Shown here: positions 1-14,411 of the stretch, piece by piece
Layout of the letters: each line of letters starts with the position of its first letter
Numbering within the stretch: position 1 is the stretch's first letter
From: Pyrinomonadaceae bacterium
GTDB taxonomy: Bacteria > Acidobacteriota > Blastocatellia > Pyrinomonadales > Pyrinomonadaceae
Assembly (NCBI GenBank): GCA_013812565.1
Contig: JACCTF010000289.1
Span: 1 to 14,543, forward strand
Reading direction: 5' to 3'
Length of the DNA: 14,543 nt
Made by a program: the position numbers and the translations under genes
The notes under the pieces: model-generated
Told to the model about the DNA's origin: nothing
The model's database searches: none
The model's input: the letters and a program-made list of their open reading frames with translations, nothing else

Positions 1-940
1 GACGAACAAACGGCGGAAACTCTCGACGGCAAATCTCCTCTGCCAGTTCGCAGCGCGGCGCAAAGGGGCATCCCGGCGGAAGATGTGCCGTGTCGGGCGG
101 AAAACCCGGAATCTGGTAGAGTTCGCCTCGGTCGGCGGTCGGATCAGGCACACAGCGCAGCAACCCTTTGGTATAAGGATTTCCGGGACGAGCGAAAAGC
201 TCGCGCGTCGGGGCCTTCTCGAAAACATTGCCGGCATACATAACAATGATGTTATCAGCCATTCCTGCCACCACTCCGAGATCATGCGTGATGAGCATAA
301 CGCTCGCCCCCGTCTCGATCTTCAACTTCTTAATCAGTTCGAGAATCTGCGCCTGAATCGTCACATCAAGCGCCGTCGTCGGCTCATCGGCGATCAGCAA
401 CTCGGGCTGACACGACAAGGCCATCGCGATCATCACACGCTGGCGCATCCCGCCGGAGAACTCGTGCGGGTAGCTGCGGTAGCGCGCGGGCGCATCCGGA
501 ATGCCGACCGTCTCAAGCATCTCGATGGCGTGCGCGCGGGCCTGCGCTTTAGTATGACCGAGGTGTAGCTCGGTTATCTCCGTCAACTGCTTTGAGATGG
601 GCAGGAACGGATTAAGCGAGGCCATCGGATCTTGGAAGATCATGCTGATCCGCTTGCCGCGAACCCGGCGCATCTCGCTCGCTGACAGTGCAAGCAGGTC
701 TTGCCCGCCGAAGATCACTTCGCCTGAGATGATTCGTCCAGGTGGCTCCGAAATCAGGCGCATGATGGAAAGGTTTGTCACGGACTTTCCCGACCCCGAC
801 TCGCCGACGATGCCGAGGGTCTCGCCACGCCGTAGATCGAAACTGACTCCATCGACCGCCTGCACCGTGCCATCATCGGTTTCGAAATAGGTTCGAAGAT
901 CGCGAACGGAAAGAAGCGTCTCCGTGTTATAGCCGTACAA
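1..940 (-). CDS. oppD: Oligopeptide/dipeptide ABC transporter ATP-binding protein, 3' end cut by window edge
   Basis: This is the cytoplasmic ATPase that powers the oppBC peptide importer encoded just upstream. The reading frame runs off the left edge after about 313 codons. Walker A is GESGSGKS (residues 46-53). The ABC signature is FSGGMRQR (from residue 161), Walker B is LLIADEP (D185, E186), and a THD switch histidine follows. The C-terminal oligo_HPY region contains Cys263, Cys291, Cys297 and Cys304, the last three within a GCPFAPRC-type stretch; in related DppD/OppD proteins such a Cys set binds a 4Fe-4S cluster. The start is TTG at 938-940: a TAG stop in the same frame (944-946, also the oppC stop) lies one codon upstream, no earlier start is possible, and an AAGGGGG Shine-Dalgarno-like run lies 6 bases upstream. 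The 3-base gap to oppC implies translational coupling. Whether dpp or opp is the better name depends on the substrate, which cannot be read here. Confidence 0.93.
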   Translation of the reverse strand, partial: MYGYNTETLLSVRDLRTYFETDDGTVQAVDGVSFDLRRGETLGIVGESGSGKSVTNLSIMRLISEPPGRIISGEVIFGGQDLLALSASEMRRVRGKRISMIFQDPMASLNPFLPISKQLTEITELHLGHTKAQARAHAIEMLETVGIPDAPARYRSYPHEFSGGMRQRVMIAMALSCQPELLIADEPTTALDVTIQAQILELIKKLKIETGASVMLITHDLGVVAGMADNIIVMYAGNVFEKAPTRELFARPGNPYTKGLLRCVPDPTADRGELYQIPGFPPDTAHLPPGCPFAPRCELAEEICRREFPPFVR

Positions 941-943
941 GGT

Positions 944-2044
944 CTACCCCCTTCGCATCTGCGGATCAAGTGCGTCGCGAAGTCCATCGCCTAAGAAGTT
1001 CAGAGACAAGAGCGTAAGGGCCATCGTCACACTGGGAAAGATCAACTGCCACGGAAAGATCGCCATGTTCTGTATGCCTTCGAAGGCAAGGCTACCCCAG
1101 GAAGTTAGCGGCGCTTGCACGCCGAAGCCGAGGAAAGACAGAAAGGCTTCTTGCAGCATCACCTGCGGAACGGTCAACGTGGCGTAGACGATTACAGGAC
1201 TGAGCGCGTTTGGCACGAGATGCCGAAAGATAATCTTTGTTGGTGAAACTCCGGTGGCGCGGGCGGCCAGTATAAATTCTTGATTCTTCAACGAGAGGAC
1301 TTGCCCGCGCACGATCCGCGCCATTGTCAACCAGGAGACCGCGCCGAGCGCGAGGAATAAAAGCAGCAGTCGTCCGTGCGGCGTCTGCCCGCTAAACATC
1401 GCGAGCAGGACGATCACCACCATCATGTACGGGATGGCATAAAGCACGTCAACGATGCGCATCATCACATCGTCCGTGCGTCCATCGAGGTAACCGGCGG
1501 TTGCGCCATAGGAGACGCCGATGATAAGCGAAACAATCGTCGAGATTATTCCGACTGTCAAGGAGACCCGCCCCCCGAACAGCACACGCGCGAGGATGTC
1601 GCGCCCGGTTGTGTCAGTTCCCATCGGGTGCTTCCACGAAAACGAGCCGTCCGTGTCAGTAAACGGCGGAAACGATTTGATGAGGCTCGCTTCACTCGGT
1701 ATGTAATCATGTGTATATCCGGTCGTAGCTTTGATGATCAACGGACCAACAAGCGAAGCGCACGCAATCACCAGCAAAAACACCATGCCGAAGACCGCCA
1801 ACCTGTTTCGCCGCAAACGCCGCCAGGCATCCCTCCACAAAGATTTTCCGGCAACCGCTTCAATCTCCGCCTCATTCGAATATACGTCGCCCTCGCCAAT
1901 CGCTAATTCAGATGTTGTGTGAATGGTGTTTCCGCGGCGGGCACGAACGGGCGGCTCAGGCGGAGTGCCTAAGCTGGTCAGCGCCGGTTTCAGTTTGTCC
2001 AACCCGACTTCATTAGTTTGAATTGGAGATGGTTCATCTTTCAT
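944..2044 (-). CDS. oppC: Oligopeptide/dipeptide ABC transporter permease, OppC type
   Basis: This is an inner-membrane permease that pairs with OppB to form the peptide channel. The frame could open further upstream at 2137, but that would overlap oppB by 89 bases. The ATG at 2042-2044, 4 bases after the oppB stop, gives a 366-residue protein that begins MKDEPSPIQ. The preferred start has no clear Shine-Dalgarno sequence, so translation is probably coupled to oppB. The first ~70 residues are a hydrophilic, Pro/Glu-rich cytoplasmic extension, longer than in E. coli OppC (about 300 residues). An OppC_N segment (WRDAWRRLRRNRLAVFG) and the first membrane helix follow. A periplasmic loop with GTDTTGRDILARVLFGGR precedes the binding-protein-dependent permease domain. 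The EAA loop that docks on the ATPase is visible as FILAARATGVSPTKIIFRH. Confidence 0.93.
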   Translation of the reverse strand: MKDEPSPIQTNEVGLDKLKPALTSLGTPPEPPVRARRGNTIHTTSELAIGEGDVYSNEAEIEAVAGKSLWRDAWRRLRRNRLAVFGMVFLLVIACASLVGPLIIKATTGYTHDYIPSEASLIKSFPPFTDTDGSFSWKHPMGTDTTGRDILARVLFGGRVSLTVGIISTIVSLIIGVSYGATAGYLDGRTDDVMMRIVDVLYAIPYMMVVIVLLAMFSGQTPHGRLLLLFLALGAVSWLTMARIVRGQVLSLKNQEFILAARATGVSPTKIIFRHLVPNALSPVIVYATLTVPQVMLQEAFLSFLGFGVQAPLTSWGSLAFEGIQNMAIFPWQLIFPSVTMALTLLSLNFLGDGLRDALDPQMRRG

Positions 2045-2048
2045 CTGA

Positions 2049-2969
2049 TCAGTACCGAATGCGCGGGTCAATGTAGGCGTAGGCGATGTCAACGAGAAGG
2101 TTAAAGATGAGAATCGTGATCGACATGAATGCGACAATGCCGATGATCAGCGGTTCGTCGCGGTTAAGGTTGGCGTTGATAAAGTAGTTACCTAAACCGG
2201 GAAGCGCAAAGATGCGTTCGATAACCACTGTGCCGGTAATCAGAAAGGCAAGCGCCGGGCCGGTGTATGAGACGACCGGCAGCAGTCCGCCGCGCGAAGC
2301 GTGTCTGAAGATCACTTGGCGCTCCGGCAAACCTTTGGCGCGTGCGGTGCGGATGTAATCGGCGCGCAAGACTTCGAGCATACCCGCGCGCGTGAGGCGG
2401 GCGATATAAGCCATGTAAGCGACCGAGAGCGTCACGACCGGCAGCACCAGATTCCAGCTTAGGAATCCGCCCCACCTGGCGGGCGGTAACCAGTAGAGGG
2501 TGAGTGAAAACAGCAGCACCAGCACGGGGCCGAGAACGAAGTTTGGTAACGAGATGCCAAGAATTGCGAGAGCCATTGAAGCGTGGTCGAGTGTGGTGTT
2601 CTGCTTCATGGCCGCAAGCATTCCCGCGCTCACCCCGACGATAAGCGCCGACAGGTAGGCGAGCAGTCCCAGTGTGGCCGACACTGGAAGCGTTCGCAGG
2701 AGGATCTGATTGACGGATTGCCCTCGATATTGTAATGAGTCGCCGAAGTCTCCGCGCAGGGTGTTACCCATCATTTTCCCGTACTGCACGTACCACGGTT
2801 TGTCCAGTCCATACTTCTCGCGGATGTTCTTCTCAATCGCCGCAGGCAGTCTCCGTTCGCCCGTATAGAAGTTGCCGGGCGCAAGCCTGATCAAAACCCA
2901 TGTGATGGTCACCACAAGCAGAACCATCGGCACGACAATGATCATTCGACGGATGATGAAAGAAAGCAT
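2049..2969 (-). CDS. oppB: Oligopeptide/dipeptide ABC transporter permease, OppB type
   Basis: This is the second inner-membrane permease of the importer, 306 residues, the usual length for OppB/DppB. It starts with the family's first membrane helix (MLSFIIRRMIIVVPMVLLVV), followed by the conserved RLAPGN segment. A periplasmic region contains EKYGLDKPWYVQYG and GDFGDSLQYRGQSV, both typical of OppB. Several membrane helices and an EAA docking loop, YIRTARAKGLPERQVIFRHA (about residues 205-224), follow. The C-terminus is DPRIRY, close to the usual DPR(I/V)RY ending. The upstream signal is weak (AAGAGAAA about 6 bases before ATG). The gene is separated from oppA by 108 bases holding an inverted repeat, so expression relative to oppA may be attenuated. 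It is followed after 4 bases by oppC. Confidence 0.94.
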   Translation of the reverse strand: MLSFIIRRMIIVVPMVLLVVTITWVLIRLAPGNFYTGERRLPAAIEKNIREKYGLDKPWYVQYGKMMGNTLRGDFGDSLQYRGQSVNQILLRTLPVSATLGLLAYLSALIVGVSAGMLAAMKQNTTLDHASMALAILGISLPNFVLGPVLVLLFSLTLYWLPPARWGGFLSWNLVLPVVTLSVAYMAYIARLTRAGMLEVLRADYIRTARAKGLPERQVIFRHASRGGLLPVVSYTGPALAFLITGTVVIERIFALPGLGNYFINANLNRDEPLIIGIVAFMSITILIFNLLVDIAYAYIDPRIRY

Positions 2970-2991
2970 TTAAGTTTCTCTTAAGAACTTA

Positions 2992-3068
2992 GCTACAAAG
3001 GCACAGAGAATAAATACTGGATTAAATGAAGTCTTTTTTTATTTGTTAAATCTCTGTGTCTCTGTGGC
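2992..3068. repeat. Imperfect inverted repeat between oppA and oppB (CACAGAGA type)
   Basis: The left arm (2992-3009, gctacaaaggcacagaga) and right arm (3051-3068, tctctgtgtctctgtggc) are reverse complements at 15 of 18 positions, with 41 AT-rich bases between them. Read as minus-strand RNA, one of the three mismatches becomes a G-U pair, so an 18-position stem can form between oppA and oppB. The TCTCTGTGTCTCTGTGGC wording resembles short dispersed repeats that I recall from many environmental genomes; that match is from memory. It could stabilise the oppA message or reduce read-through into the permease genes. Confidence 0.7.
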
Positions 3069-3077
3069 ACATCATCA

Positions 3078-5114
3078 TTACTCAGTCATCTGTGGCATAC
3101 CGCGATCCCACTTCGCCGGATCGTGCTCGATGTAAACAAACTTCCAGGCATGCATCGCTCCCAGAGTTGGATATAGACCTTTGACGTATGGCTTCTTCAT
3201 CCAATTCGTCCGTTCACTTTGAAGCGGAAGCATCGGTTGCTCCTCAATTAGGTAAGCTTCGGCCTCCGCCAGTAGTTCATAACGTCGTCGCGGATCAAGC
3301 GTTCGATTTGCTTCATCGATTATTTGGTCATACTTCGGGTCCGTCCAACCGGTGCCGCTTCCGTTGTTTGGCGTATGAAATAGAGTGAGGAAGGTGAATG
3401 GATCCATGTAATCCGCCCCGTAAGAGCCGCGTGCAAAACCTTTGTAATCCAGTCTATTACGCAGCGCGTCAAACGTGCTGTTCTCCATGTTCTTGATCGT
3501 CACGGTGATCTGTAGATTCTGCTTCCACTGCGCCTGGAGAAACTCGGCAATTACTCTGTTGTTCGGATTTGTGTTGTAGGTTAGCTCCACTTGATCGGTG
3601 GGAAACTTCTCCGGATCAAAGTTACCTTCGTTGTCTCTATAACCGGCATCGGCCAAGAGATGGCTTGCTCGCTTCGGATCAAACTTATCGCCTTTGGGTT
3701 GTGGGTATCCGGGGAAGATGCCTTCGGGGGTGAAGGCGGTTAAGGGTTTTGACGTTCGTCGCAGTGCGGCGAGCGCGTCTTTGTCGATTGCCATGTTGAA
3801 AGCTTTGCGCACGCGCTTGTCCGTCATCGGAGGCTTCGTCGTATTGATCCAGTAGTAAGCTATGGCCGCCTCCGGCGCGTCCATATAATCTTTGAGTGTT
3901 CGGATCTGATCTATCCAACCGTATGGAACCGTGTGGTTATACACCGCATCAAGTTCGCCTGCTTTGTAAAGATTCATTATCGTCATGTTCTCTTCCAGCG
4001 GGAAGAAGCTGATTTGATCAAGCTTGACGATGGCGGCATCCCAGTAGAGTGGATCGCGGACAACGGTCAGTTCGTTGTAGGGTTTCCATGTTTGAAGCTT
4101 GAACGGGCCGCAAGAGACGATCTTGCCGGGCTGCGTCCACGCTGCTCCATGTTTCTCAATCGCCTTACGCGGGACAACGCGGAATAAGTGAAGCGGTAAC
4201 ATCTCGATAAAAAAGGGCGCGGTCTGCGTGAGCGTGATACGCAGAGTGTATTCATCAACGGCTTCAACGCCGATGTCTTCTGCTTTAACGGGGACTAACT
4301 CTTTACCGGAGAGCGCGGCTTTCAAGCCGGGATTACTTTCGAGCGCTTTCGCTCTAGCCTGCTCAGCGCCGGGCAAAACGAACCGCGTCGGTGATCTGAT
4401 AAAGCGGTGAAAACTCGTATCAATTGCTATTGCATTCTCAGCATCATACAGCGCTGGCCGTGGCTGCTGTAATCCACAGTGAGCGCTGGGACTGGATGCT
4501 TCCGAAGGTAAAGCGATTGATGGAGTATCCGATTGTTTATGTTGTACGGGTGCTTCGGTTTTTGCAACCGTCTTTGCAGAATCAAGGCTGAAATCTTCTT
4601 CGAGAAGAAACTCACCCGTCGCAGGATCGCGCACGAAGACGCCGCCCTCGTTATAGCTTTGCGCATATTTTATGTAGTAAGCGAAACTAGCATTGCGCGC
4701 CGCCAGTTGTGGTGAGATGGCGCGGCGAAAGCTGTAGACGAAATCATCTGCTGTTATCGGATCATTATCGGACCAACGAGCGTTACGGCGCAGGTGAAAA
4801 ACAAACTCGGAGTGATCCTTGTTCGCCTCCCACCGCTCGGCGATAGCAGGAATCGGCTTCATCGTCTTCGGATGATACTCAACCAATCCTTCAAAGAGCG
4901 CCATGATAATGCGATGTTCGAGTTGGTTAGTAGGAATATGTGGATCAATAGACCCTGGCTCGGCGCCCGAAGTGTAGCGCAGAATCCGACCTTTTGGCGG
5001 CTCTGTTTTTCCAAAGAACTCGACGTTCCCGGCCTGGCTAACAGAGCAAGCAACCAGCGGCGAGAGAATCGCGAGCGTAGCTATGAATCGAAACCAATTA
5101 ACAGCAAGCTTCAT
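3078..5114 (-). CDS. oppA: Peptide ABC transporter substrate-binding lipoprotein, family 5 (OppA type)
   Basis: This is the periplasmic, membrane-anchored receptor that captures peptides for OppBCD. The frame is open to 5183, but the ATG at 5112-5114 is preferred: AAGGAG lies 7 bases upstream and a proper lipoprotein signal follows. That gives 678 residues with lipobox LVAC at Cys23. SBP_bac_5 hallmarks are visible: GAEPGSIDPH, ALFEGLVEYHPKT, FHLRRNARWSDNDPITADDFVYSFRR, a central RKAFNMAIDKDAL and a C-terminal region with DEANRTLDPRRRYELLAEAE. Compared with E. coli OppA (about 543 residues) there is an extra segment of roughly 115 residues near positions 157-275, containing Ser/Pro/Ala-rich sequence. 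The gene is the first of the oppABCD set and lies about 490 bases downstream of a second, related binding-protein gene. The exact peptide range is unknown. Confidence 0.92.
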   Translation of the reverse strand: MKLAVNWFRFIATLAILSPLVACSVSQAGNVEFFGKTEPPKGRILRYTSGAEPGSIDPHIPTNQLEHRIIMALFEGLVEYHPKTMKPIPAIAERWEANKDHSEFVFHLRRNARWSDNDPITADDFVYSFRRAISPQLAARNASFAYYIKYAQSYNEGGVFVRDPATGEFLLEEDFSLDSAKTVAKTEAPVQHKQSDTPSIALPSEASSPSAHCGLQQPRPALYDAENAIAIDTSFHRFIRSPTRFVLPGAEQARAKALESNPGLKAALSGKELVPVKAEDIGVEAVDEYTLRITLTQTAPFFIEMLPLHLFRVVPRKAIEKHGAAWTQPGKIVSCGPFKLQTWKPYNELTVVRDPLYWDAAIVKLDQISFFPLEENMTIMNLYKAGELDAVYNHTVPYGWIDQIRTLKDYMDAPEAAIAYYWINTTKPPMTDKRVRKAFNMAIDKDALAALRRTSKPLTAFTPEGIFPGYPQPKGDKFDPKRASHLLADAGYRDNEGNFDPEKFPTDQVELTYNTNPNNRVIAEFLQAQWKQNLQITVTIKNMENSTFDALRNRLDYKGFARGSYGADYMDPFTFLTLFHTPNNGSGTGWTDPKYDQIIDEANRTLDPRRRYELLAEAEAYLIEEQPMLPLQSERTNWMKKPYVKGLYPTLGAMHAWKFVYIEHDPAKWDRGMPQMTE

Positions 5115-5121
5115 CAACCGG

Positions 5122-5127
5122 CTCCTT
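5122..5127 (-). promoter_or_regulatory. Shine-Dalgarno sequence deciding the oppA start
   Basis: AAGGAG on the minus strand lies 7 bases before ATG 5114. The alternative ATG at 5183 lacks both this signal and a sensible signal peptide. Confidence 0.8.
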
Positions 5128-5391
5128 ACACCGTTGTTACAAAGGGGCGGCAACTCACTTCGATCCGTATCGGCTCCAACCATAGAACCTCATCATTGAA
5201 GCATGGCATGTTCGAGTATCACGGCAACCGCGTAAACGTCTGCGGCTGGTGGTGTGAGGATATGAGGAGTGAATTAAATGCGTGTAACTAAAGCGCCGTC
5301 ACGTTACCACGCACAAGGTTTTCGATCAAGATTGTCTTTGACCTCCTCTGTGTGCCCGTGTGCACTGCTCTTTGTTGCTATAGACTTCCGT

Positions 5392-5544
5392 GAAAAAGAA
5401 CAAGCCACGAACTAAACAAATGAGCACGAACTGCTTGATCGAGAGCGCATGTCACAAGATGGTAGCTATTGTTGCAACGCCAATTGCTTCCGATAGTTCT
5501 ATTCGTGTTGCTTCGCGGTTCATTCGTGGCTGAATTGCTTTTCT
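5392..5544. repeat. Imperfect long inverted repeat (CACGAA type) upstream of oppA
   Basis: The left arm, about 5392-5430, contains gaaaaagaacaagccacgaa and then gagcacgaac. The right arm, about 5501-5544, contains attcgtgttg, cattcgtggc and gcttttctt. Its reverse complement lines up with the left arm through GAAAA, AGCCACGAA and the outer ...CACGAA block, with small gaps. The arms enclose about 70 bases. The ATTCGTGTT / ATTCGTGGC wording resembles dispersed non-coding repeats that I recall from acidobacterial and other environmental genomes, but this is from memory. The alignment is by eye and the arm ends are approximate. Confidence 0.45.
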
Positions 5545-5605
5545 TAAATGCTATGCCTTGGCAAGCAGAACAAGCATGCATCTGTTTGTTGGAGGCTGGG
5601 AAGCA

Positions 5606-5707
5606 TCACCCGCTGCGACCAACATGAACCGTGCCTGGATCAATGGGCGGCGGCTGCCAAGACAAATCTATCCGTACATCCTTCAGGGAAGTAGCATTAA
5701 GCAGGTT
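5606..5707 (-). other. Out-of-frame C-terminal remainder of the second binding protein
   Basis: The codons from 5707 down to the TGA at 5606-5608 encode 33 residues that begin NLLNATSLKDVRIDLSWQPP, the style of ending seen in family-5 binding proteins (…LKDVRID..W). The segment is shifted by one base relative to the upstream frame: GAC (5710-5712) is followed by only two bases before AAC (5705-5707). A single missing base explains it. Confidence 0.75.
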
Positions 5708-7536
5708 AGGTCAAAGCCTGTGACGTAAGGCTTGACGAGCGTGAAGGACGAAGCGAAATACAAAGGAAAGCCTGGAAGATCCACGAGTGCCTGTGCTTCG
5801 GTTAAAACAGAGGGTGATGGCGATAGTAGTGTTTGAGGAAGCGCCGCCTGTTCGCTGTCTTCCTTTTTTGGCGAACCATCTCCCGGCATGAATGGGGTCT
5901 CTATAGTCGCCTCTGCTTTCTCTACGCCGTCCGCCTTGTTTGTTTCACGGATCAGCTTCTTAGCGCCGAACATGATGAGCATGTTGGTTGTCTCATCGGT
6001 TGTTTGCATTACTAGGCTGCGGCGCGCGACATCGTAGTCACCCTTCTGAAGCGCCGCTTCATATTGATCCCAGCTTTTTACAATCACTTCGGTCTCTATC
6101 TGCAAAACGCTACGCCACATCCCCGCCACCGCTTCGGCCACCGTCCGCTGCTGATCGTTACGGTTGATCAGCAATCTGATGCGCGGAAAGCCGCGCCCTT
6201 CCGGGTAACCGGCCTCCGCGAGCAGCCTTCGCGCACCATTAGCATCGTATGCAAGCGCCTTCACGTTTTCTCCGCTCGCACTTCGGTTATCCGCTATCAC
6301 GCTTGGCAAAAAACTTTTTGCCGCTTCGGTCGCGCCGCCCAGTTTATCCGCGCTCAAACGGTCGCGATCAATCGCAATGGCAAGCGCCTCGCGTATGCGC
6401 CGGTCAGTGAACGGCGCGCACGCTGTGTTGAAGGCGTAGTAGGTGAGCGCGCCATAGGTTGCGCGCTTAAAGTCTCGGTAGGTGGCTAATAGTTTCAGGG
6501 CCAGTGGTTCAAAGGCAGCGTTTGTCACAACATCCACTTCACCAGCGCGGTATGCGGCGAGTGCTGCCTCGGCGCTCGCCGCATCCACGAAACGCACACG
6601 CTCAAGCGCCACTGTTTTCCTGGCCCAGTAATTTTGCACGCGCTCAAGGATGACGCTGTTGGGTGTCACTTGACTTAATTGAAAAGCGCCGTTGGATATA
6701 ATCTGCGGCGTCACATTTTGAACGCTTTCAATCGGCGCTTGTTTGGATTCGGCAATAAAATTTTCTGGAGACGGATTAACTGCTGCGCTTGCTTGATGTA
6801 CCGGGCGAAAAACAGGATGTGCCACAAGCGTCGGGAAGTTGTTATCAGCACCCCGCAGACGCACGCGCAGGAGGTGCGGACTGACGGCTTCTGCGCCGAA
6901 TTGCCCGGCTTCTTCTGAATGGATTTGAGCTAACAACTTCGCTTCTGGTTTGGTTAACTCTTTTTCATTCGCATCTTCGCTTTCATCAGAGCTTCCGGCA
7001 CGTTGTTCCTCTCTTGCCACTCGCGCCTGCAAAGTTTCTGCGGTGTCGAGCGGCGCACCTTCGATACTCCTCAACAGTTGCGCATGTGGGGCCAGACGGC
7101 CGAGTTGTAGCGTGCGCTGCCAAGAGCGCACAAAATCATGCGCCGTGACCGGGTCGCCGTTAGACCAACGTGCATCTCGGCGAAGATGAAATGTCCACAC
7201 ACGCTTATCAGCCGAAGACTCCCAACGCGACGCGACGGCGGGCACCGGCGCAAGACTCTGCGGATCGTAATCGGTTAATCCCTCAAACATCGCGCGCACG
7301 GCATCTATGTCAGGTGATACGGCGGCCAGGGCCGGATCAAAGATTTGCGGCAATCCGCCGTTACTCCACCGGAGTTCGTTCGCGCGCGGCACGGTGACGC
7401 GACCGTAGAATCGTTCTCCCTCGTCAACGGAAAAACATCCACCGCTCACAAGCGTTGCGGCAACCGCCAGCGACACGACAAACCGGGGCCGCCATCTTCG
7501 ACAACTTTTACTTCGTACCGATTTCCTCTGCGTCAT
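5683..7536 (-). CDS. Family-5 substrate-binding lipoprotein with C-terminal frameshift
   Basis: This is a second OppA/DppA-like periplasmic receptor, 617 residues as read. It has a basic N-terminus, a hydrophobic stretch and a lipoprotein-like VSGGC site (Cys34), although Ser at -3 is not ideal. SBP_bac_5 features include FDPALAAVSPD, RAMFEGLTDYDPQSLAPVPAVASRWE, FHLRRDARWSNGDPVTAHDFVRSWQR and REALAIAIDRDRL. Acidic, low-complexity inserts occur around residues 165-200 and 540-575. The last residues as read (LTCLMLLP) do not fit the family. After GFD (GAC at 5710-5712) a one-base change restores a typical ending, NLLNATSLKDVRIDLSW..., reaching a stop at 5606-5608. The gene therefore carries a frameshift near 5708, or the assembly has an error there. 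It starts 3 bases after the coaE stop, so it is probably co-transcribed with folD-coaE. Its partner permease may be the downstream OppBC, but this is not shown. Confidence 0.88.
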   Translation of the reverse strand: MTQRKSVRSKSCRRWRPRFVVSLAVAATLVSGGCFSVDEGERFYGRVTVPRANELRWSNGGLPQIFDPALAAVSPDIDAVRAMFEGLTDYDPQSLAPVPAVASRWESSADKRVWTFHLRRDARWSNGDPVTAHDFVRSWQRTLQLGRLAPHAQLLRSIEGAPLDTAETLQARVAREEQRAGSSDESEDANEKELTKPEAKLLAQIHSEEAGQFGAEAVSPHLLRVRLRGADNNFPTLVAHPVFRPVHQASAAVNPSPENFIAESKQAPIESVQNVTPQIISNGAFQLSQVTPNSVILERVQNYWARKTVALERVRFVDAASAEAALAAYRAGEVDVVTNAAFEPLALKLLATYRDFKRATYGALTYYAFNTACAPFTDRRIREALAIAIDRDRLSADKLGGATEAAKSFLPSVIADNRSASGENVKALAYDANGARRLLAEAGYPEGRGFPRIRLLINRNDQQRTVAEAVAGMWRSVLQIETEVIVKSWDQYEAALQKGDYDVARRSLVMQTTDETTNMLIMFGAKKLIRETNKADGVEKAEATIETPFMPGDGSPKKEDSEQAALPQTLLSPSPSVLTEAQALVDLPGFPLYFASSFTLVKPYVTGFDLTCLMLLP

Positions 7537-9524: not shown

Positions 9525-9941
9525 TTACAAAGCAGGCGAAGCGACGCGAGATTCAAGGGAAGGAACCTGCGACTGTGTTGCTAGCAACTGCTTGATTGCA
9601 TCAACCATCTTTGTGATGCCCAATGGTTTCTTGAGAAAGATATTGGCCCCGGCCGCAAGCGCTTCATGCTTGCAGTCGCTTGCTGTAAACATAATGATGG
9701 GCGTGTCGCGATGCTTAAAGGAAGTTCGTGCGCTGCGCACGAGGGTGAGTCCGCTTGCGTGTGGTAATTGGTTATCCAAAATTAGAAGGTCGTACTGCTT
9801 ACCGCTCTTGATCTGCCTGCAAGCTGCCGCGCCATCACGGCACACATCCGTCTGCCAACCTTCAAGTTCCAACATCTGTTTGACGGTGAGCAGCACCAGA
9901 TCATAGTCATCAACGTAGAGGATCTTAACTTTTGGTAGCAC
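9525..9941 (-). CDS. Stand-alone receiver-domain response regulator
   Basis: This is a CheY-like phosphoacceptor protein, 138 residues, with one receiver domain and no output domain. The acidic pocket is D11 and D12, the phosphoacceptor is D56 (LLILDNQLP), the switch threonine is T86 (IIMFTAS), and the conserved lysine is K105 in LKKP. A short hydrophilic tail of about 18 residues follows. The start codon is GTG at 9939-9941, with AAAGGA about 9 bases upstream. No histidine kinase is encoded in the window. The gene lies about 400 bases downstream of the TPR-sigma54 activator on the same strand, which has no receiver domain of its own, so a functional link is possible but unproven. Confidence 0.9.
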   Translation of the reverse strand: MLPKVKILYVDDYDLVLLTVKQMLELEGWQTDVCRDGAAACRQIKSGKQYDLLILDNQLPHASGLTLVRSARTSFKHRDTPIIMFTASDCKHEALAAGANIFLKKPLGITKMVDAIKQLLATQSQVPSLESRVASPAL

Positions 9942-10345: not shown

Positions 10346-12628
10346 TCATCGCTTGCCGCAGCCTTTCATAAGCTTCGCTTTGTCGGGCCGCAACCCTTGA
10401 TGTCGCGTGTTGAGCATGAAGGACAATGTTTGATGATTGCGGATACCCAGCAGACGCGCCGCCCGTGTGATGCTGCCGATGCTCGCCCGTAACGCACGCT
10501 CAATCAACTGTCCTTCAAAACGCTGAACCTCCTGCGCCAAGTCACAGCCACGCCAAGCGTTAGCCGGGTCCCCGTCGGTTGTTTGTCTTAACGCCAACGT
10601 TTCTACGGCCTCCTCAGAAATCACGTCACCGCCATGACTCGTCAACATTGTTCGCTCGATGAGCGTGCGTAATTCGCGTGCGTTGCCACGCAGTTCTAAT
10701 CTCTGTAGCGCCTCTAGACTCTCGGCGGTCCACTCAACACGGCGACCGTATTTCGTCTCCATCATGCCGATAAAGTGCTTGGCGAGCGCGCCGATGTCCG
10801 CTGGACGCTCGCGTAGCGGCGGAATCTCTATGTGGAATGGTGTGAGCCGATGAAACAGATCTTCGCGAAAGCGTTTGGCAGCCAAAAGTGTCGGAAGATC
10901 ATGGTTAGTGGCAGCGATGATCCGCACATCAACGTGCTCCGGCATGCCGCTGCCCAGTGGGCAGATCTCACCATGTTCAACCAAGCGCAGAAGCTTCGCT
11001 TGATTACTCCAGCGCAGTTCGCCGATTTCATCCAAGAATAGCGTGCCGCCTGCGGCTTCGCGCACCGCTCCCAGATGATCTTCAACCGCATCAGTAAAGC
11101 TTCCCTTCCCGTGACCAAACAACTGTGATTCGAAGAGCGTGTCAGAGAGCGTCGCACAATTGATGGCGACAAACTTGCCCGAACGACCGCTACATTGGTG
11201 GATAATACGGGCCAACACCTCTTTGCCTGTGCCGGTTTCGCCTCTCACGAGCACCGTCTGGTCGGTCGCCGCGACGCGTTCGACAAAGCGTAGAAGCTCG
11301 GCCGTTTCCTCCGCCTGATGCACAAAGTCTGGTGTACTCTCGCTTGCCAACTTCGCGCGCCTGTTTCTGGCGGTAATTAAGTACCGCGCACACTGGTACA
11401 ATCGCTCTCGCGTCTCGCGGTGTTGTGATGATGACAGTAACCGGTCCGCCCGCTCGTACTGTTCTTGCATCTCATCAATTGTAAGATGCTTCCTTAATTC
11501 CTCAACAAGCGTGAGGGCGGCGCGCCCCGCCCCTTCCCGGTCTCCCGCCTGTTCCGCCTTCACGGTCGCCCGTTCGAGCGCAGCGCGGGCGGGCGTGTAA
11601 CGATTGAGTCGCGCCAGCGCCGTGCCATATGTCGCGAGAGCCTCTGCTAATAGCGCGTGCTGATCACCTTGCTCGAGCGTGTGTACCGCCGCTCGTATCA
11701 CTCTCTCCGCTTCAAAGTTCTGGCCCTGCGCTAACAAATTCCTGGCTCGCGTCTCGTCCACTTGGGCACAATGCACGTTGTCCTTGAGACTGACGAACAA
11801 ACGGCGAGCCTGGTCCAGATGATCATCCGCTTCGATGTATCTTCCGGCGGCAAGGTGGAGGAGGCCCAAGTTGTTTTCAATCGCCGCGCGGAACCGCAAA
11901 TGTCCGGCCTGCTCGAAGTGAAAGCTTGCTGCGGCGTACTCGATCAAGGCACGGTCTATGAAATCCTCGCGTTGTTCTGAAGCTCCGAGATTCTTCAGCA
12001 CCGTTGCCAGCGTAGTGTGGAATTTGCCCTTGAGTGTATGATCAGCGCTCGCTTCGACCGGGGGGGCAGCCTCTGTCAGGATGCGCAAAGCGTCATTCAA
12101 CCTATTGGCCGCTCGCTCGACTTCGGCGCTACGTAACAGAGCCAGCGCCTTCAACTCCAGGTCTGCTTCGGCAAGTTGATTGAGCGCCTCGCCTAGTATA
12201 ATCCGCGCTTCGTCAAAGGCTCCCTCACGCCAGTAACACCAGGCAATCTCGATCTGAGCTTCGGCCGCTTTCCTCTCATCGCCAAGCGACTTGAAAATAG
12301 TCGCGCTTTCAGTGATAAGATTCTTTGCCGTTTCCTGCGCGCCTGTGATCTGACCCGCGCTGCCGATCCACCCCGACAAAGAGCCGATGCGCAACAACAC
12401 TTCGGCTGACGCCCGCTCATCCAGATTACCGAGCGCGGGGCGCTCACCAATGCGCCCCCACAGATCGCCCATTGCGCCGCGTGCTGCTTCGTAGTTACCG
12501 GCCTGTTCCAACTCCTTCGCAAGCGCACAACGAAGCTCTGCACGCTCATTGGAAGTGAGAAATGAATCATTAACCTGGTGAAGCAATCCAATTGCTTGAT
12601 CCGTGTCAGCCTTCACTATTTTTGCCAT
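10346..12628 (-). CDS. Sigma54-type AAA+ transcriptional activator with N-terminal TPR sensor region
   Basis: This is a 760-residue cytoplasmic regulator, probably an enhancer-binding protein that remodels sigma54 RNA polymerase. Residues ~20-420 are helical TPR-like repeats, for example AEAQIEIAWCYWREGAFDEA (123-142), IENNLGLLHLAAGRYIEADD (250-269) and YGTALARLNRYTPARAALER (334-353). The AAA+ domain has Walker A GETGTGKE (463-470), Walker B FLDE (D533, E534), RIIAATNHD, arginine-finger region FREDLFHRL and sensor II GNAREL. The sigma54-contact loop, normally GAFTGA, reads GSFTDA (509-514). A Fis-type helix-turn-helix lies at about 719-740 (TRAARLLGIRNHQTLS). There is no receiver, GAF or PAS domain, so the TPRs are the likely sensor, for a protein or peptide. 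It is divergent from the GDIGVG-repeat protein gene 218 bases away. The ribosome signal (AAAAAGG, 10 bases before ATG) is modest. Confidence 0.92.
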   Translation of the reverse strand: MAKIVKADTDQAIGLLHQVNDSFLTSNERAELRCALAKELEQAGNYEAARGAMGDLWGRIGERPALGNLDERASAEVLLRIGSLSGWIGSAGQITGAQETAKNLITESATIFKSLGDERKAAEAQIEIAWCYWREGAFDEARIILGEALNQLAEADLELKALALLRSAEVERAANRLNDALRILTEAAPPVEASADHTLKGKFHTTLATVLKNLGASEQREDFIDRALIEYAAASFHFEQAGHLRFRAAIENNLGLLHLAAGRYIEADDHLDQARRLFVSLKDNVHCAQVDETRARNLLAQGQNFEAERVIRAAVHTLEQGDQHALLAEALATYGTALARLNRYTPARAALERATVKAEQAGDREGAGRAALTLVEELRKHLTIDEMQEQYERADRLLSSSQHRETRERLYQCARYLITARNRRAKLASESTPDFVHQAEETAELLRFVERVAATDQTVLVRGETGTGKEVLARIIHQCSGRSGKFVAINCATLSDTLFESQLFGHGKGSFTDAVEDHLGAVREAAGGTLFLDEIGELRWSNQAKLLRLVEHGEICPLGSGMPEHVDVRIIAATNHDLPTLLAAKRFREDLFHRLTPFHIEIPPLRERPADIGALAKHFIGMMETKYGRRVEWTAESLEALQRLELRGNARELRTLIERTMLTSHGGDVISEEAVETLALRQTTDGDPANAWRGCDLAQEVQRFEGQLIERALRASIGSITRAARLLGIRNHQTLSFMLNTRHQGLRPDKAKLMKGCGKR

Positions 12629-12693
12629 AATAAACTAACCTTTTTAGTGCTAACATAGGCAATCTCCCCATTGAAACAACCGATCCTCGCCAC

Positions 12694-12722
12694 TTGTAAG
12701 TAGAAGAATCTGATTCTTTAAT
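12694..12722 (+). promoter_or_regulatory. Putative promoter with operator-like palindrome for the GDIGVG peptide gene
   Basis: TTGTAA (12694-12699) and TTTAAT (12717-12722) are spaced by 17 bases and match the -35/-10 consensus at 4 and 5 of 6 positions. The spacer and -10 edge contain a perfect 7+1+7 palindrome, aagaatctgattctt (12704-12718), placed where a bound repressor would block polymerase. The predicted leader would be about 118 bases. Confidence 0.35.
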
Positions 12723-12738
12723 TCACCCCGTATATGAC

Positions 12739-12801
12739 GGGAACTCTGGTGCAGAGAGTCCCTACTTAATCGGGGGCATCTAGCTGGCTAGTCTCTGCGC
12801 C
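12739..12801 (+). promoter_or_regulatory. Leader with two mutually exclusive hairpins before the GDIGVG peptide gene
   Basis: Hairpin A: 12739-12747 (gggaactct) pairs with 12755-12762 (agagtccc), with one bulged A. Hairpin B: 12748-12757 (ggtgcagaga) pairs with 12792-12801 (tctctgcgcc), with nine Watson-Crick pairs plus one G-U, enclosing a small ctagc-tg-gctag hairpin. Bases 12755-12757 are needed by both, so only one can form. It fits no riboswitch class that I recognise. Confidence 0.35.
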
Positions 12802-12822
12802 TGGTAACAAACATTAACCAGG
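12800..12822 (+). promoter_or_regulatory. Short hairpin in the leader of the GDIGVG peptide gene
   Basis: CCTGGT (12800-12805) and ACCAGG (12817-12822) form a 6-base stem with an 11-base loop, ending 13 bases before the AGGAG ribosome site (12836-12840). Its 5' end overlaps the last two bases of hairpin B. Confidence 0.4.
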
Positions 12823-12846
12823 AATTACTCATTTCAGGAGAAAACA

Positions 12847-13131
12847 ATGAAGCAATTGCGACGAATCTTTGCAGCCACCGTTATAACCTGTGCGCTTACC
12901 TCGTCAACGTTTGCGGGCGACATCGGCGTTGGAAGATCAACTGCAGGCGATATTGGCGTCGGCCAAGCAGTAGCAGCAGGCGACATCGGCGTTGGCCGGG
13001 TGGCCGCGACCGGTGACATCGGAGTCGGAAAAGCAGAAGCCCGTGAGGGATTTAATAGCCAGAGCAGTTCCAGTGAATTTATTCTGACAGCCATGCTAAA
13101 TACTCTGCAAAACTTGTTGCCTTTGTTTTAG
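12847..13131 (+). CDS. Secreted small protein with four GDIGVG repeats
   Basis: This protein has 94 residues and belongs to no named family that I can assign. Residues 1-23 are a signal peptide (MKQLRRIF..., hydrophobic core, cleavage expected after TFA), so the mature form begins exactly at the first repeat. Four repeats follow at residues 24-65: GDIGVGRSTA, GDIGVGQAVAA, GDIGVGRVAAT and GDIGVGKAEA. Each hexapeptide is followed by R, Q or K and then an Ala-rich spacer. A hydrophilic Ser-rich linker (EGFNSQSSSSE) and a hydrophobic helix (FILTAMLNTLQNLLPLF) close the protein. AGGAG lies 6 bases before ATG. The gene is divergent from a TPR-sigma54 activator. The product may be a precursor of short repeated peptides, a surface or envelope repeat protein, or a self-assembling peptide; the sequence does not decide. 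Confidence 0.85.
   Translation: MKQLRRIFAATVITCALTSSTFAGDIGVGRSTAGDIGVGQAVAAGDIGVGRVAATGDIGVGKAEAREGFNSQSSSSEFILTAMLNTLQNLLPLF
12916..13041 (+). repeat. Four in-frame GDIGVG coding repeats
   Basis: The units are 12916-12945, 12946-12978, 12979-13011 and 13012-13041 (30, 33, 33 and 30 bases). The six-codon core encodes the same hexapeptide in all four. Every base difference in the core (GGC/GGT/GGA, GAC/GAT, ATC/ATT, GTT/GTC) is at a synonymous third position, while the spacer residues vary. Confidence 0.95.
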
Positions 13132-13481: not shown

Positions 13482-14411
13482 ATGAACACAGACCTTCATA
13501 CAACATCAAACAAACTTCGTGTGCGGCGTCAACAAGTCATGTCGTTTATCGGCGTTACCATCCTCTACATTGGACTGACGGCCTGCGCTGCTTCGCCCGA
13601 GCGTTCATCACATGAACAGCGCTACGAATTGACCGGCAAAGTTGTCTCGGTTGACAAGGCCGAGCGGCGCGTGGTCGTAGCGCATGATGAGATAACCGGG
13701 TTCATGGACGCGATGATTATGCCCTTCACTTTAAAAGAAGCGGAAGCCCTTGACGTGATCGCACCGGGCGACCGTTTGTCGGCGACATTAGTGGTGGACG
13801 GCGAAAAGTCATGGCTCGAAAATCCGGCGATTACTAAAGCGGATTCGTCAAGCGGAAGTGCGGGAAGCATCAATGAAGCTATCGAACCGAGTCCGGGCGA
13901 TGCAGTACCCGATCTCTCGCTTGTTAACCAAGACGGTAAACCGATTCGCTTCCACGGGTTCCAAGGGAAGGCGCTCGTCGTCACTTTTATCTACACGCGC
14001 TGTCCGCTGCCGGAATACTGCCCGCTGATGAGCAGCAACTTCGCCGAGATAGATCAGCTATTGCGCCACAACCCGCAAGTCCGTGAGCGAACGCATCTGC
14101 TTAGCATCAGCGTTGATCCCGCGCACGATACGCCGCAAGTGCTGCGTCGCTACGGCGCAGCGTATGTGGGAGATAAGAACAATCGGGTGAGTTTTGCCGA
14201 CTGGGAGTTTGCAACCGGCACACCGCAGGAAGTTCAGCGGGTGGCACAGTTCTTCGGATTAAGTTATTACACGGAAGGTGATCAGATTGTGCATTCGCTT
14301 CGCACGGTGGTCATCACGCCGGAAGGCAAAATCTTCAAAATTTACAAAAATAACGAGTGGAAACCCGCCGACGTGATACGCGATCTCGAAAGCTTAATCA
14401 CACAGAAGTGA
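13482..14411 (+). CDS. SCO1/SenC-family copper lipoprotein with N-terminal CusF-like domain
   Basis: This is a periplasmic, membrane-anchored copper-handling protein of 309 residues. SCO proteins deliver copper or reducing equivalents to cytochrome oxidase CuA sites. The N-terminal signal ends in lipobox LTAC (Cys35). Residues ~46-110 resemble the CusF-type copper-binding domain (YELTGKVVSVD, H68, then GFMDAMIMPF with M75, M78, M80). Residues ~140-305 form the thioredoxin-fold SCO domain (VPDLSLVNQDGKPIRF, VVTFIYTRCP, LLSISVDPAHDTPQVLRRYG). The copper site has Cys174 and Cys180 in RCPLPEYCP, spaced C-x5-C where canonical SCO has C-x3-C, and the distal ligand His271 (VHSLRTVVI). The start is uncertain: ATG 13482 has only a weak GGG upstream, and the ATG at 13539 (residue 20) would leave a shorter signal. 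No oxidase genes are present in the window. Confidence 0.9.
   Translation: MNTDLHTTSNKLRVRRQQVMSFIGVTILYIGLTACAASPERSSHEQRYELTGKVVSVDKAERRVVVAHDEITGFMDAMIMPFTLKEAEALDVIAPGDRLSATLVVDGEKSWLENPAITKADSSSGSAGSINEAIEPSPGDAVPDLSLVNQDGKPIRFHGFQGKALVVTFIYTRCPLPEYCPLMSSNFAEIDQLLRHNPQVRERTHLLSISVDPAHDTPQVLRRYGAAYVGDKNNRVSFADWEFATGTPQEVQRVAQFFGLSYYTEGDQIVHSLRTVVITPEGKIFKIYKNNEWKPADVIRDLESLITQK

Follow-up and report, generated by a model that had tools for sequence, protein, structure and literature searches.

Among described systems, the closest to the one reported here are the RRNPP regulators (Rap-Phr, NprR-NprX, PlcR-PapR and PrgX), in which a TPR receptor is encoded beside the gene of a Sec-type propeptide and which comprise many paralogues with differing peptides. 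Passages of PMC6540685 and PMC3601965, which supplied the family features used for comparison, present intracellular TPR sensing of re-imported peptides as a feature of Gram-positive bacteria, chiefly Firmicutes. Here, we describe a gene pair in a 14,543-nucleotide stretch of DNA (the window; contig C747 of a 5.3 Mb metagenome-assembled genome) from a member of the Pyrinomonadaceae, phylum Acidobacteriota. A TPR regulator gene and a gene for a small, predicted secreted protein with four GDIGVG repeats diverge from each other across 218 bp, and the arrangement recurs in relatives: a divergent small secreted open reading frame (ORF) is present at 150 of 160 assessable TPR homologues (three locus sets pooled) and, in the reverse direction, a precursor profile run on five genomes found 27 precursor genes, 26 of which have a TPR gene within ~1.2 kb.

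This receptor and propeptide linkage, the many paralogues with differing peptides and a superhelical TPR domain, with RapI and NprR among its closest bacterial structures, are shared with RRNPP systems. Unlike in RRNPP proteins, where the TPR domain is C-terminal and preceded by an N-terminal HTH or the Rap helical bundle, the TPR domain here is N-terminal and the outputs, which are C-terminal, include Fis-HTH, AAA, REC, hybrid histidine kinase, GGDEF-EAL and LexA-like modules. The precursors are multi-copy, and the host phylum is Acidobacteriota instead of Firmicutes. By the features tested (TPR position and phylum) the pair is not an RRNPP member, but the best explanation is that it works like one. 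A parallel for the precursor is yeast alpha-factor, where several identical short peptides lie within one exported precursor; the pair described here differs in being bacterial, in having no general basic residue after the unit and in having an intracellular TPR partner instead of a G-protein-coupled receptor. No description of these pairs was found in the open-access literature searched, and they are not described in passages of PMC5900883, PMC4644332, PMC6540685, PMC3601965 and PMC7298970.

We put at about 0.7 the probability that the pair is a self-contained peptide-signalling cassette, RRNPP-like and outside Firmicutes, whose repeat peptides, once exported, return to the cell and bind in the TPR groove. 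The precursor would be exported by Sec, cleavage by signal peptidase would leave the first hexapeptide copy as the mature N-terminus, and further copies would be freed by other proteases. The free peptides, private to each cassette, may then return to the cytoplasm, most likely via an Opp-type importer, and bind the concave TPR groove of the regulator encoded next door, for which the covariation described below is suggestive. Binding would alter the output domain: in the window, the AAA+/Fis-type HTH module probably controls the shared divergent promoter region, generating feedback, and in relatives the output would be a plain HTH, an HTH with a receiver, a hybrid histidine kinase, a GGDEF-EAL protein or a LexA-like module. 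A constant TPR sensor that has exchangeable outputs and is almost always encoded next to a secreted precursor with a nearly private, often repeated hexamer is best read, together with that precursor, as receptor and signal. If this is true, common soil bacteria of the Acidobacteriota harbour a large version of intracellular peptide sensing.

The pair and its conservation in Pyrinomonadaceae

The elements of the pair, with one neighbouring gene, are as follows.

10346..12628, minus strand: TPR receptor/regulator, 760 aa (Pfam TPR_12 stretches, Sigma54_activat, AAA_lid_14, HTH_8)
12629..12846, no strand: divergent intergenic region, 218 bp (sequence)
12704..12718, no strand: perfect palindrome AAGAATC-T-GATTCTT, written AAGAATCTGATTCTT, a weak candidate operator (sequence)
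12847..13131, plus strand: predicted secreted repeat-peptide precursor, 94 aa (ORF sequence, family conservation)
12847..12915, plus strand: predicted Sec signal peptide, residues 1-23, ending STFA before G (AxA rule; kept across the family)
12916..12933, plus strand: GDIGVG copy 1, mature N-terminus, residues 24-29 (sequence)
12946..12963, plus strand: GDIGVG copy 2, residues 34-39 (sequence)
12979..12996, plus strand: GDIGVG copy 3, residues 45-50 (sequence)
13012..13029, plus strand: GDIGVG copy 4, residues 56-61 (sequence)
13084..13128, plus strand: hydrophobic C-terminal tail LTAMLNTLQNLLPLF, conserved (family comparison)
9525..9941, minus strand: stand-alone receiver (REC) protein, downstream of the regulator (domain match)

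The regulator consists of a TPR domain (approximately residues 1-420), a sigma54-type AAA+ domain with a GSFTDA loop and an HTH_8 domain; the AlphaFold model of residues 1-420 has a mean predicted local distance difference test score of 95.2. The precursor begins MKQLRRIFAATVITCALTSSTFA, after which the predicted signal-peptidase site, assigned from the sequence by the AxA rule, is followed directly by GDIGVG. It appears to consist of a Sec signal peptide, four exact GDIGVG units with short linkers, each encoded by a different DNA version, and a hydrophobic tail, and has no match in Pfam or NCBIfam. Coordinates, domains and the four exact copies confirm the divergent TPR regulator and secreted GDIGVG-repeat gene that had been proposed from the window sequence.

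Searches with the window precursor retrieved weak relatives in other genera (20/60 genomes at E ≤0.1, its own genome included), and among the loci fetched for these matches 13 besides the window's own carried a divergent TPR homologue. One of these 13 is a second pair in the window's own genome, on contig C60 and with the hexamer GDISGD. A TPR-only profile (A1) was made with 12 loci that had initially been retrieved by way of the peptide; it matches 62/119 family genomes at E ≤1e-40, in 26/29 genera and up to 8 times per genome. From the at least 150 places matched by A1, 140 loci were fetched, the window being additional; eight were not fetched and one was caught in part. In the first set (100 fetched loci and the window), an automatic rule finds a divergent signal-peptide ORF in 94/101, or in 96/99 of those with enough DNA once L132, which starts with GTG, and L134, truncated at the end of its contig, are added. 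Among 40 further loci the pair is found in 32/38 assessable, five of them accepted by eye. A distant set, 18 genomes with only distant TPR matches (E 8e-65 to 7e-39), was meant as a negative control, yet the pair is found in 22/23 under a looser rule. A new control was therefore built with a strict detector, which scores 92/96 regulators, against 0/101 other long ORFs in the same loci and 1/480 shuffled regions; the loci are not all independent, with 89 of 92 TPR domains remaining at 5% distance. In the reverse search, some precursors are in tandem, and the 27th match, which has no TPR neighbour, is weak (E 0.004). The co-occurrence in relatives that the sequence-only reading had put forward as its check is therefore conserved in both directions.

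Before counting, TPR fragments below 300 aa (L086, L148, L149) and contig-edge loci (L085, L159) were dropped. In the further set, four ORFs abutting the edge of a contig or fetched stretch were also removed, together with a second TPR ORF at L358 that continues to the stretch end. The automatic rule overlooked seven of the 150 positives, which were accepted by eye: L132, L341 and L345 have a non-ATG start, L134 is cut by the contig end, and L357, L359 and L360 start just beyond the permitted distance or upstream length. L352, where a short ORF has the expected mature part and no full signal peptide, was scored negative, and a spurious candidate at L092 was skipped manually. The distant set and the viral loci described below were scored with looser rules and choice by eye.

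Within the genomes searched, the matches fall in one family. In a class-level search with A1, all 62 matching genomes (of 162) are Pyrinomonadaceae; in a draw across the phylum 6/396 genomes pass E 1e-66, again all Pyrinomonadaceae; and matches to a profile of the LexA-like type are restricted to the same family (62/162 genomes). Record titles of 80 of the 101 loci all name Acidobacteria(ota), Blastocatellia, Pyrinomonadaceae, Pyrinomonas or Chloracidobacterium.

Some loci depart from the one-to-one layout. Two or three tandem precursor genes lie beside a single receptor at L343 (G009:C17), L161 (G009:C22) and L062 (G028:C33), and the 32.7 kb contig G034:C53 carries an array of paralogues, with four TPR-peptide pairs (L331, L336, L346, L350). 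Four TPR-HTH regulators with a like C-terminus, of the FRHHQTFVALLNNRHK type (L119, L329, L355, L356), have no adjacent precursor found and are possible orphan receptors.

One TPR domain with many outputs

The TPR domain is the constant part of the family. C-terminal to it stands HTH_8 or another output: a Fis-HTH, an HTH with a receiver, an AAA domain with HTH, a LexA-like domain, a hybrid histidine kinase, GGDEF-EAL, or none. An AAA domain is present in 23/124 classified regulators and a REC domain fused to the TPR-HTH regulator in 38/124 relatives, and six hybrid histidine kinases and one GGDEF-EAL protein share the TPR domain. The S24/LexA-like label rests on weak similarity (NCBIfam LexA, E 0.086) and inspection by eye, with no Pfam S24 match. 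In a structure search, the TPR model resembles TPRs that bind peptides: LGN complexes rank first, followed by RapI, a phage Rap with its pheromone and NprR. A profile search matches NprR (5dbk, E 8e-5; 4gpk, E 2e-4) and RapI (E 1.5e-3), with generic TPRs, for example designed TPRs and kinesin light chain, scoring higher. The top rows of a BFVD fold search were mostly giant-virus TPRs and were not informative.

At L358, L361 and L363, a second TPR ORF lies near a TPR-histidine-kinase-REC gene, and REC-bearing TPR-HTH proteins occur in the family, so that a phosphorelay is possible. The stand-alone REC protein of the window (9525-9941, minus strand) resembles the REC domain fused to TPR-HTH regulators elsewhere, consistent with a gene split or fusion within the module.

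The AAA members resemble NtrC-family sigma54 activators (bacterial enhancer-binding proteins) in having an AAA core with Walker motifs, A being readable in 20/23 rows and B in 17/23 (several rows are cut), and a Fis-type HTH. They differ from them in the L1 loop, which reads GAFTGA in 0/18 readable cases, the window included (8 GSFTDA, 3 GSFTGA, 3 GSFAGA, 4 others), and most family members have no AAA domain. rpoN is present in 14/15 genomes. Sigma54 control of the pair is not supported: in a simple scan demanding GG and GC, none of 94 intergenic regions, that of the window included, gave a -24/-12 site with ≤3 mismatches. The sequence-only reading had proposed that the TPR regulator or a relative could sense the peptide and that this would involve sigma54 machinery. 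The sensing part has gained from the modular outputs, the repeated and concerted hexapeptides, the suggestive covariation and the phage-like pairs; the use of sigma54 as an essential part finds no support.

TCTTGCAAGA-like palindromes (≥9/10) occur in 16/34 HTH8, 3/20 AAA and 1/35 REC intergenic regions, often ~33 bp from the regulator start; shuffling yields 0.05, 0.1 and 0.3, respectively, an expectation that is optimistic because the motif was derived from the same sequences. The window region has no such palindrome and carries AAGAATC-T-GATTCTT instead.

Such palindromes would fit control of the precursor gene, and the divergent layout is typical of a regulator and its target. Small secreted, repeated, hydrophobic-tailed proteins can moreover be structural or antimicrobial. 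On this reading, the small protein would be a secreted effector (surface, antimicrobial or envelope) that the TPR protein controls on another cue. This is unlikely. Six hybrid histidine kinases, the GGDEF-EAL protein and a short TPR-only protein (L300) are partners without a Pfam DNA-binding domain, and the kinases and the GGDEF-EAL protein cannot be mere promoter-binding regulators of a structural gene. The part kept constant is the sensor and not the DNA-binding part, and the hexamers are nearly private and concerted, as described next.

Hexapeptide repeats and covariation with the TPR domain

The 115 precursors contain 105 different hexamers, commonly of the type G-[DEN]-[IMT]-x-[TSG]-[GP], with the first copy at the mature N-terminus. 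Three precursors without the expected mature start were dropped from the repeat test. In 35/114 unique precursors, the hexamer at the mature N-terminus appears a second time without change, against null means of 0.005 for shuffled remainders and 0.12 for remainders swapped among precursors; allowing ≤1 change, a second copy is present in 43/114 precursors, against 1.3 for swapped remainders, and the other 71 have none. The histidine-kinase class is richest in copies (GTISTT x5, GTITGS x6, GNITSR x5, GDISG x5). Synonymous differences are found in 59/62 copy pairs (169 in 372 codons, against 228 expected under free codon choice), indicating that the copies are mostly not recent duplications. The special trait of the hexamer is its identity within a precursor, and each hexamer is nearly private to its pair. 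Processing near a following R, Q or K, as had been supposed from the window precursor, is not general: one of these residues follows the hexamer in 25/161 cases.

As the probable signal is given by the repeated copies of each precursor, genome sequences allow many receptor-signal pairs to be read off. The predicted signal sequences are open to synthesis and direct testing, and a cultured host exists, Pyrinomonas methylaliphatogenes K22, with the predicted signal GEMGTG.

Between regulators less than 30% apart, mean hexamer distance is 0.62, compared with 0.51 at 30-40% and 0.72-0.76 beyond. We analysed covariation among nearest-neighbour regulators, correcting for TPR distance and assigning A and B helices from the helices of the model. 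Hexamer changes track TPR columns (maximum r 0.41-0.47, permutation p 0.003). A helices contain 9-10 of the 15 highest-ranking columns and B helices contain 1-2 (p 0.007-0.04), and the residues concerned include N213, H286, W130, C287, A249, T206 and K212. This covariation is suggestive only, because a signal-peptide control shifts similarly: its mean A-helix shift is comparable (p 0.003-0.007), with a weaker top 15 (p 0.09-0.19), and its maximum r (p 0.017-0.12) places a column above chance at two of three settings.

This control is the first of several points that weigh against the hexamer as a signal read by the TPR groove. At close range the signal peptide varies as the hexamer does (0.66 versus 0.62), so that variability by itself is not special to the hexamer. 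No exact second copy is found in 79/114 precursors, and at L361 and L357 the DNA of most copies is the same, showing that recent duplication also occurs. No precursor was found at L119, L145, L150, L329, L334, L353, L355, L356 and L263. Superhelical TPR folds are widespread, and LGN, a eukaryotic protein, outscores Rap. SBP_bac_5 occurs also in genomes without a pair found, and the absence of a neighbour family shared by the paralogue classes means that the pair has neither a linked protease nor a linked importer. Finally, the partial Mantel correlation of the hexamer with the TPR domain is weak (r 0.11, p 0.02; signal peptide 0.005, not significant), while that of the tail is strong (r 0.50, p 0.001), and the tail could therefore be the ligand.

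In that case the signal would be the hydrophobic C-terminal tail, and the repeats would serve another purpose such as processing or solubility. Hydrophobic pheromones of the cCF10 type exist, and when close regulators are compared no other part of the precursor is as similar as the tail (distance 0.30 at less than 30%). But being nearly the same in close paralogues, the tail is hardly able to discriminate them; once corrected for TPR distance, its changes track no TPR columns (p 0.39-0.93; maximum r p 0.39-0.65); and it explains neither the identity of hexamers within a protein nor their diversity between pairs. We hold the tail to be quite unlikely as the signal. Binding of the precursor by the TPR protein before export, as a cytoplasmic antagonist or export gauge for which re-import would be unneeded, would suit the lack of a linked importer and the partial covariation of the signal region with TPR A helices, but is very improbable, as it leaves unexplained both the location of the repeats in the mature part and their being identical within a precursor and different between pairs.

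Phage-like contigs, possible import and neighbouring genes

A scan of IMG/VR with A1 yielded five TPR relatives, all five with a divergent secreted small ORF (by eye). In L298 the pair lies between a terminase gene and Mu-type portal, head and protease genes, and L299 has similar neighbours (by eye). An integrase gene lies near the pair in L297, an S24/UmuD-like gene and NinB in L300, and an ERF protein gene in L301. The TPR proteins of L300 and L301 are short, and that of L300 has only TPR matches in Pfam, with no DNA-binding domain shown. Further viral scans with the LexA-like alignment, L300, L301 and L298 gave no new contigs, and one query against named phage records gave no match. In a plasmid search, each of the ten best matches listed was either a generic sigma54 regulator or without annotation, and none reached 80% coverage of the query.

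The pairs in phage-like contigs share with the arbitrium (AimR-AimP) and phage Rap-Phr systems the combination of a TPR receptor with a secreted peptide gene; the L298 pair differs from these systems in sitting among head and packaging genes. We lean, with some reserve, towards a large, modular and diversifying peptide network in a Gram-negative phylum, in which one N-terminal TPR domain serves outputs ranging from transcription factors and fusions with response regulators to hybrid histidine kinases, LexA-like proteins and c-di-GMP enzymes, each cassette has its own multi-copy hexapeptide, a genome may hold eight cassettes or more, and temperate phages carry captured cassettes in an arbitrium-like manner. 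Cassettes in phage-like contigs would make lysis-lysogeny signalling of soil phages testable.

Opp import of the peptide is plausible: binding proteins (SBP_bac_5) are encoded in 22/22 genomes tested, and an Opp-like operon lies ~3 kb from the pair in the window. For P. methylaliphatogenes K22, a passage of PMC4644332 reports oppABCDF. The window operon (2-7536, minus strand) is of the ABC type, with an ATPase, two permeases and two large binding proteins; both binding proteins match SBP_bac_5, and the other members were named by eye.

A conserved third partner was sought and rejected, as clustering of 317 neighbour ORFs revealed no family shared between paralogue classes. The neighbours include a PpiC-like gene (14 loci) and a DNA ligase gene (12), both named by eye, and an SCO1/CusF gene (6). 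The last of these is represented in the window at 13482-14411 (plus strand), where a CusF copper-binding domain is joined to SCO1/SenC; in the 6 loci, a gene resembling it is located on the side of the peptide gene.

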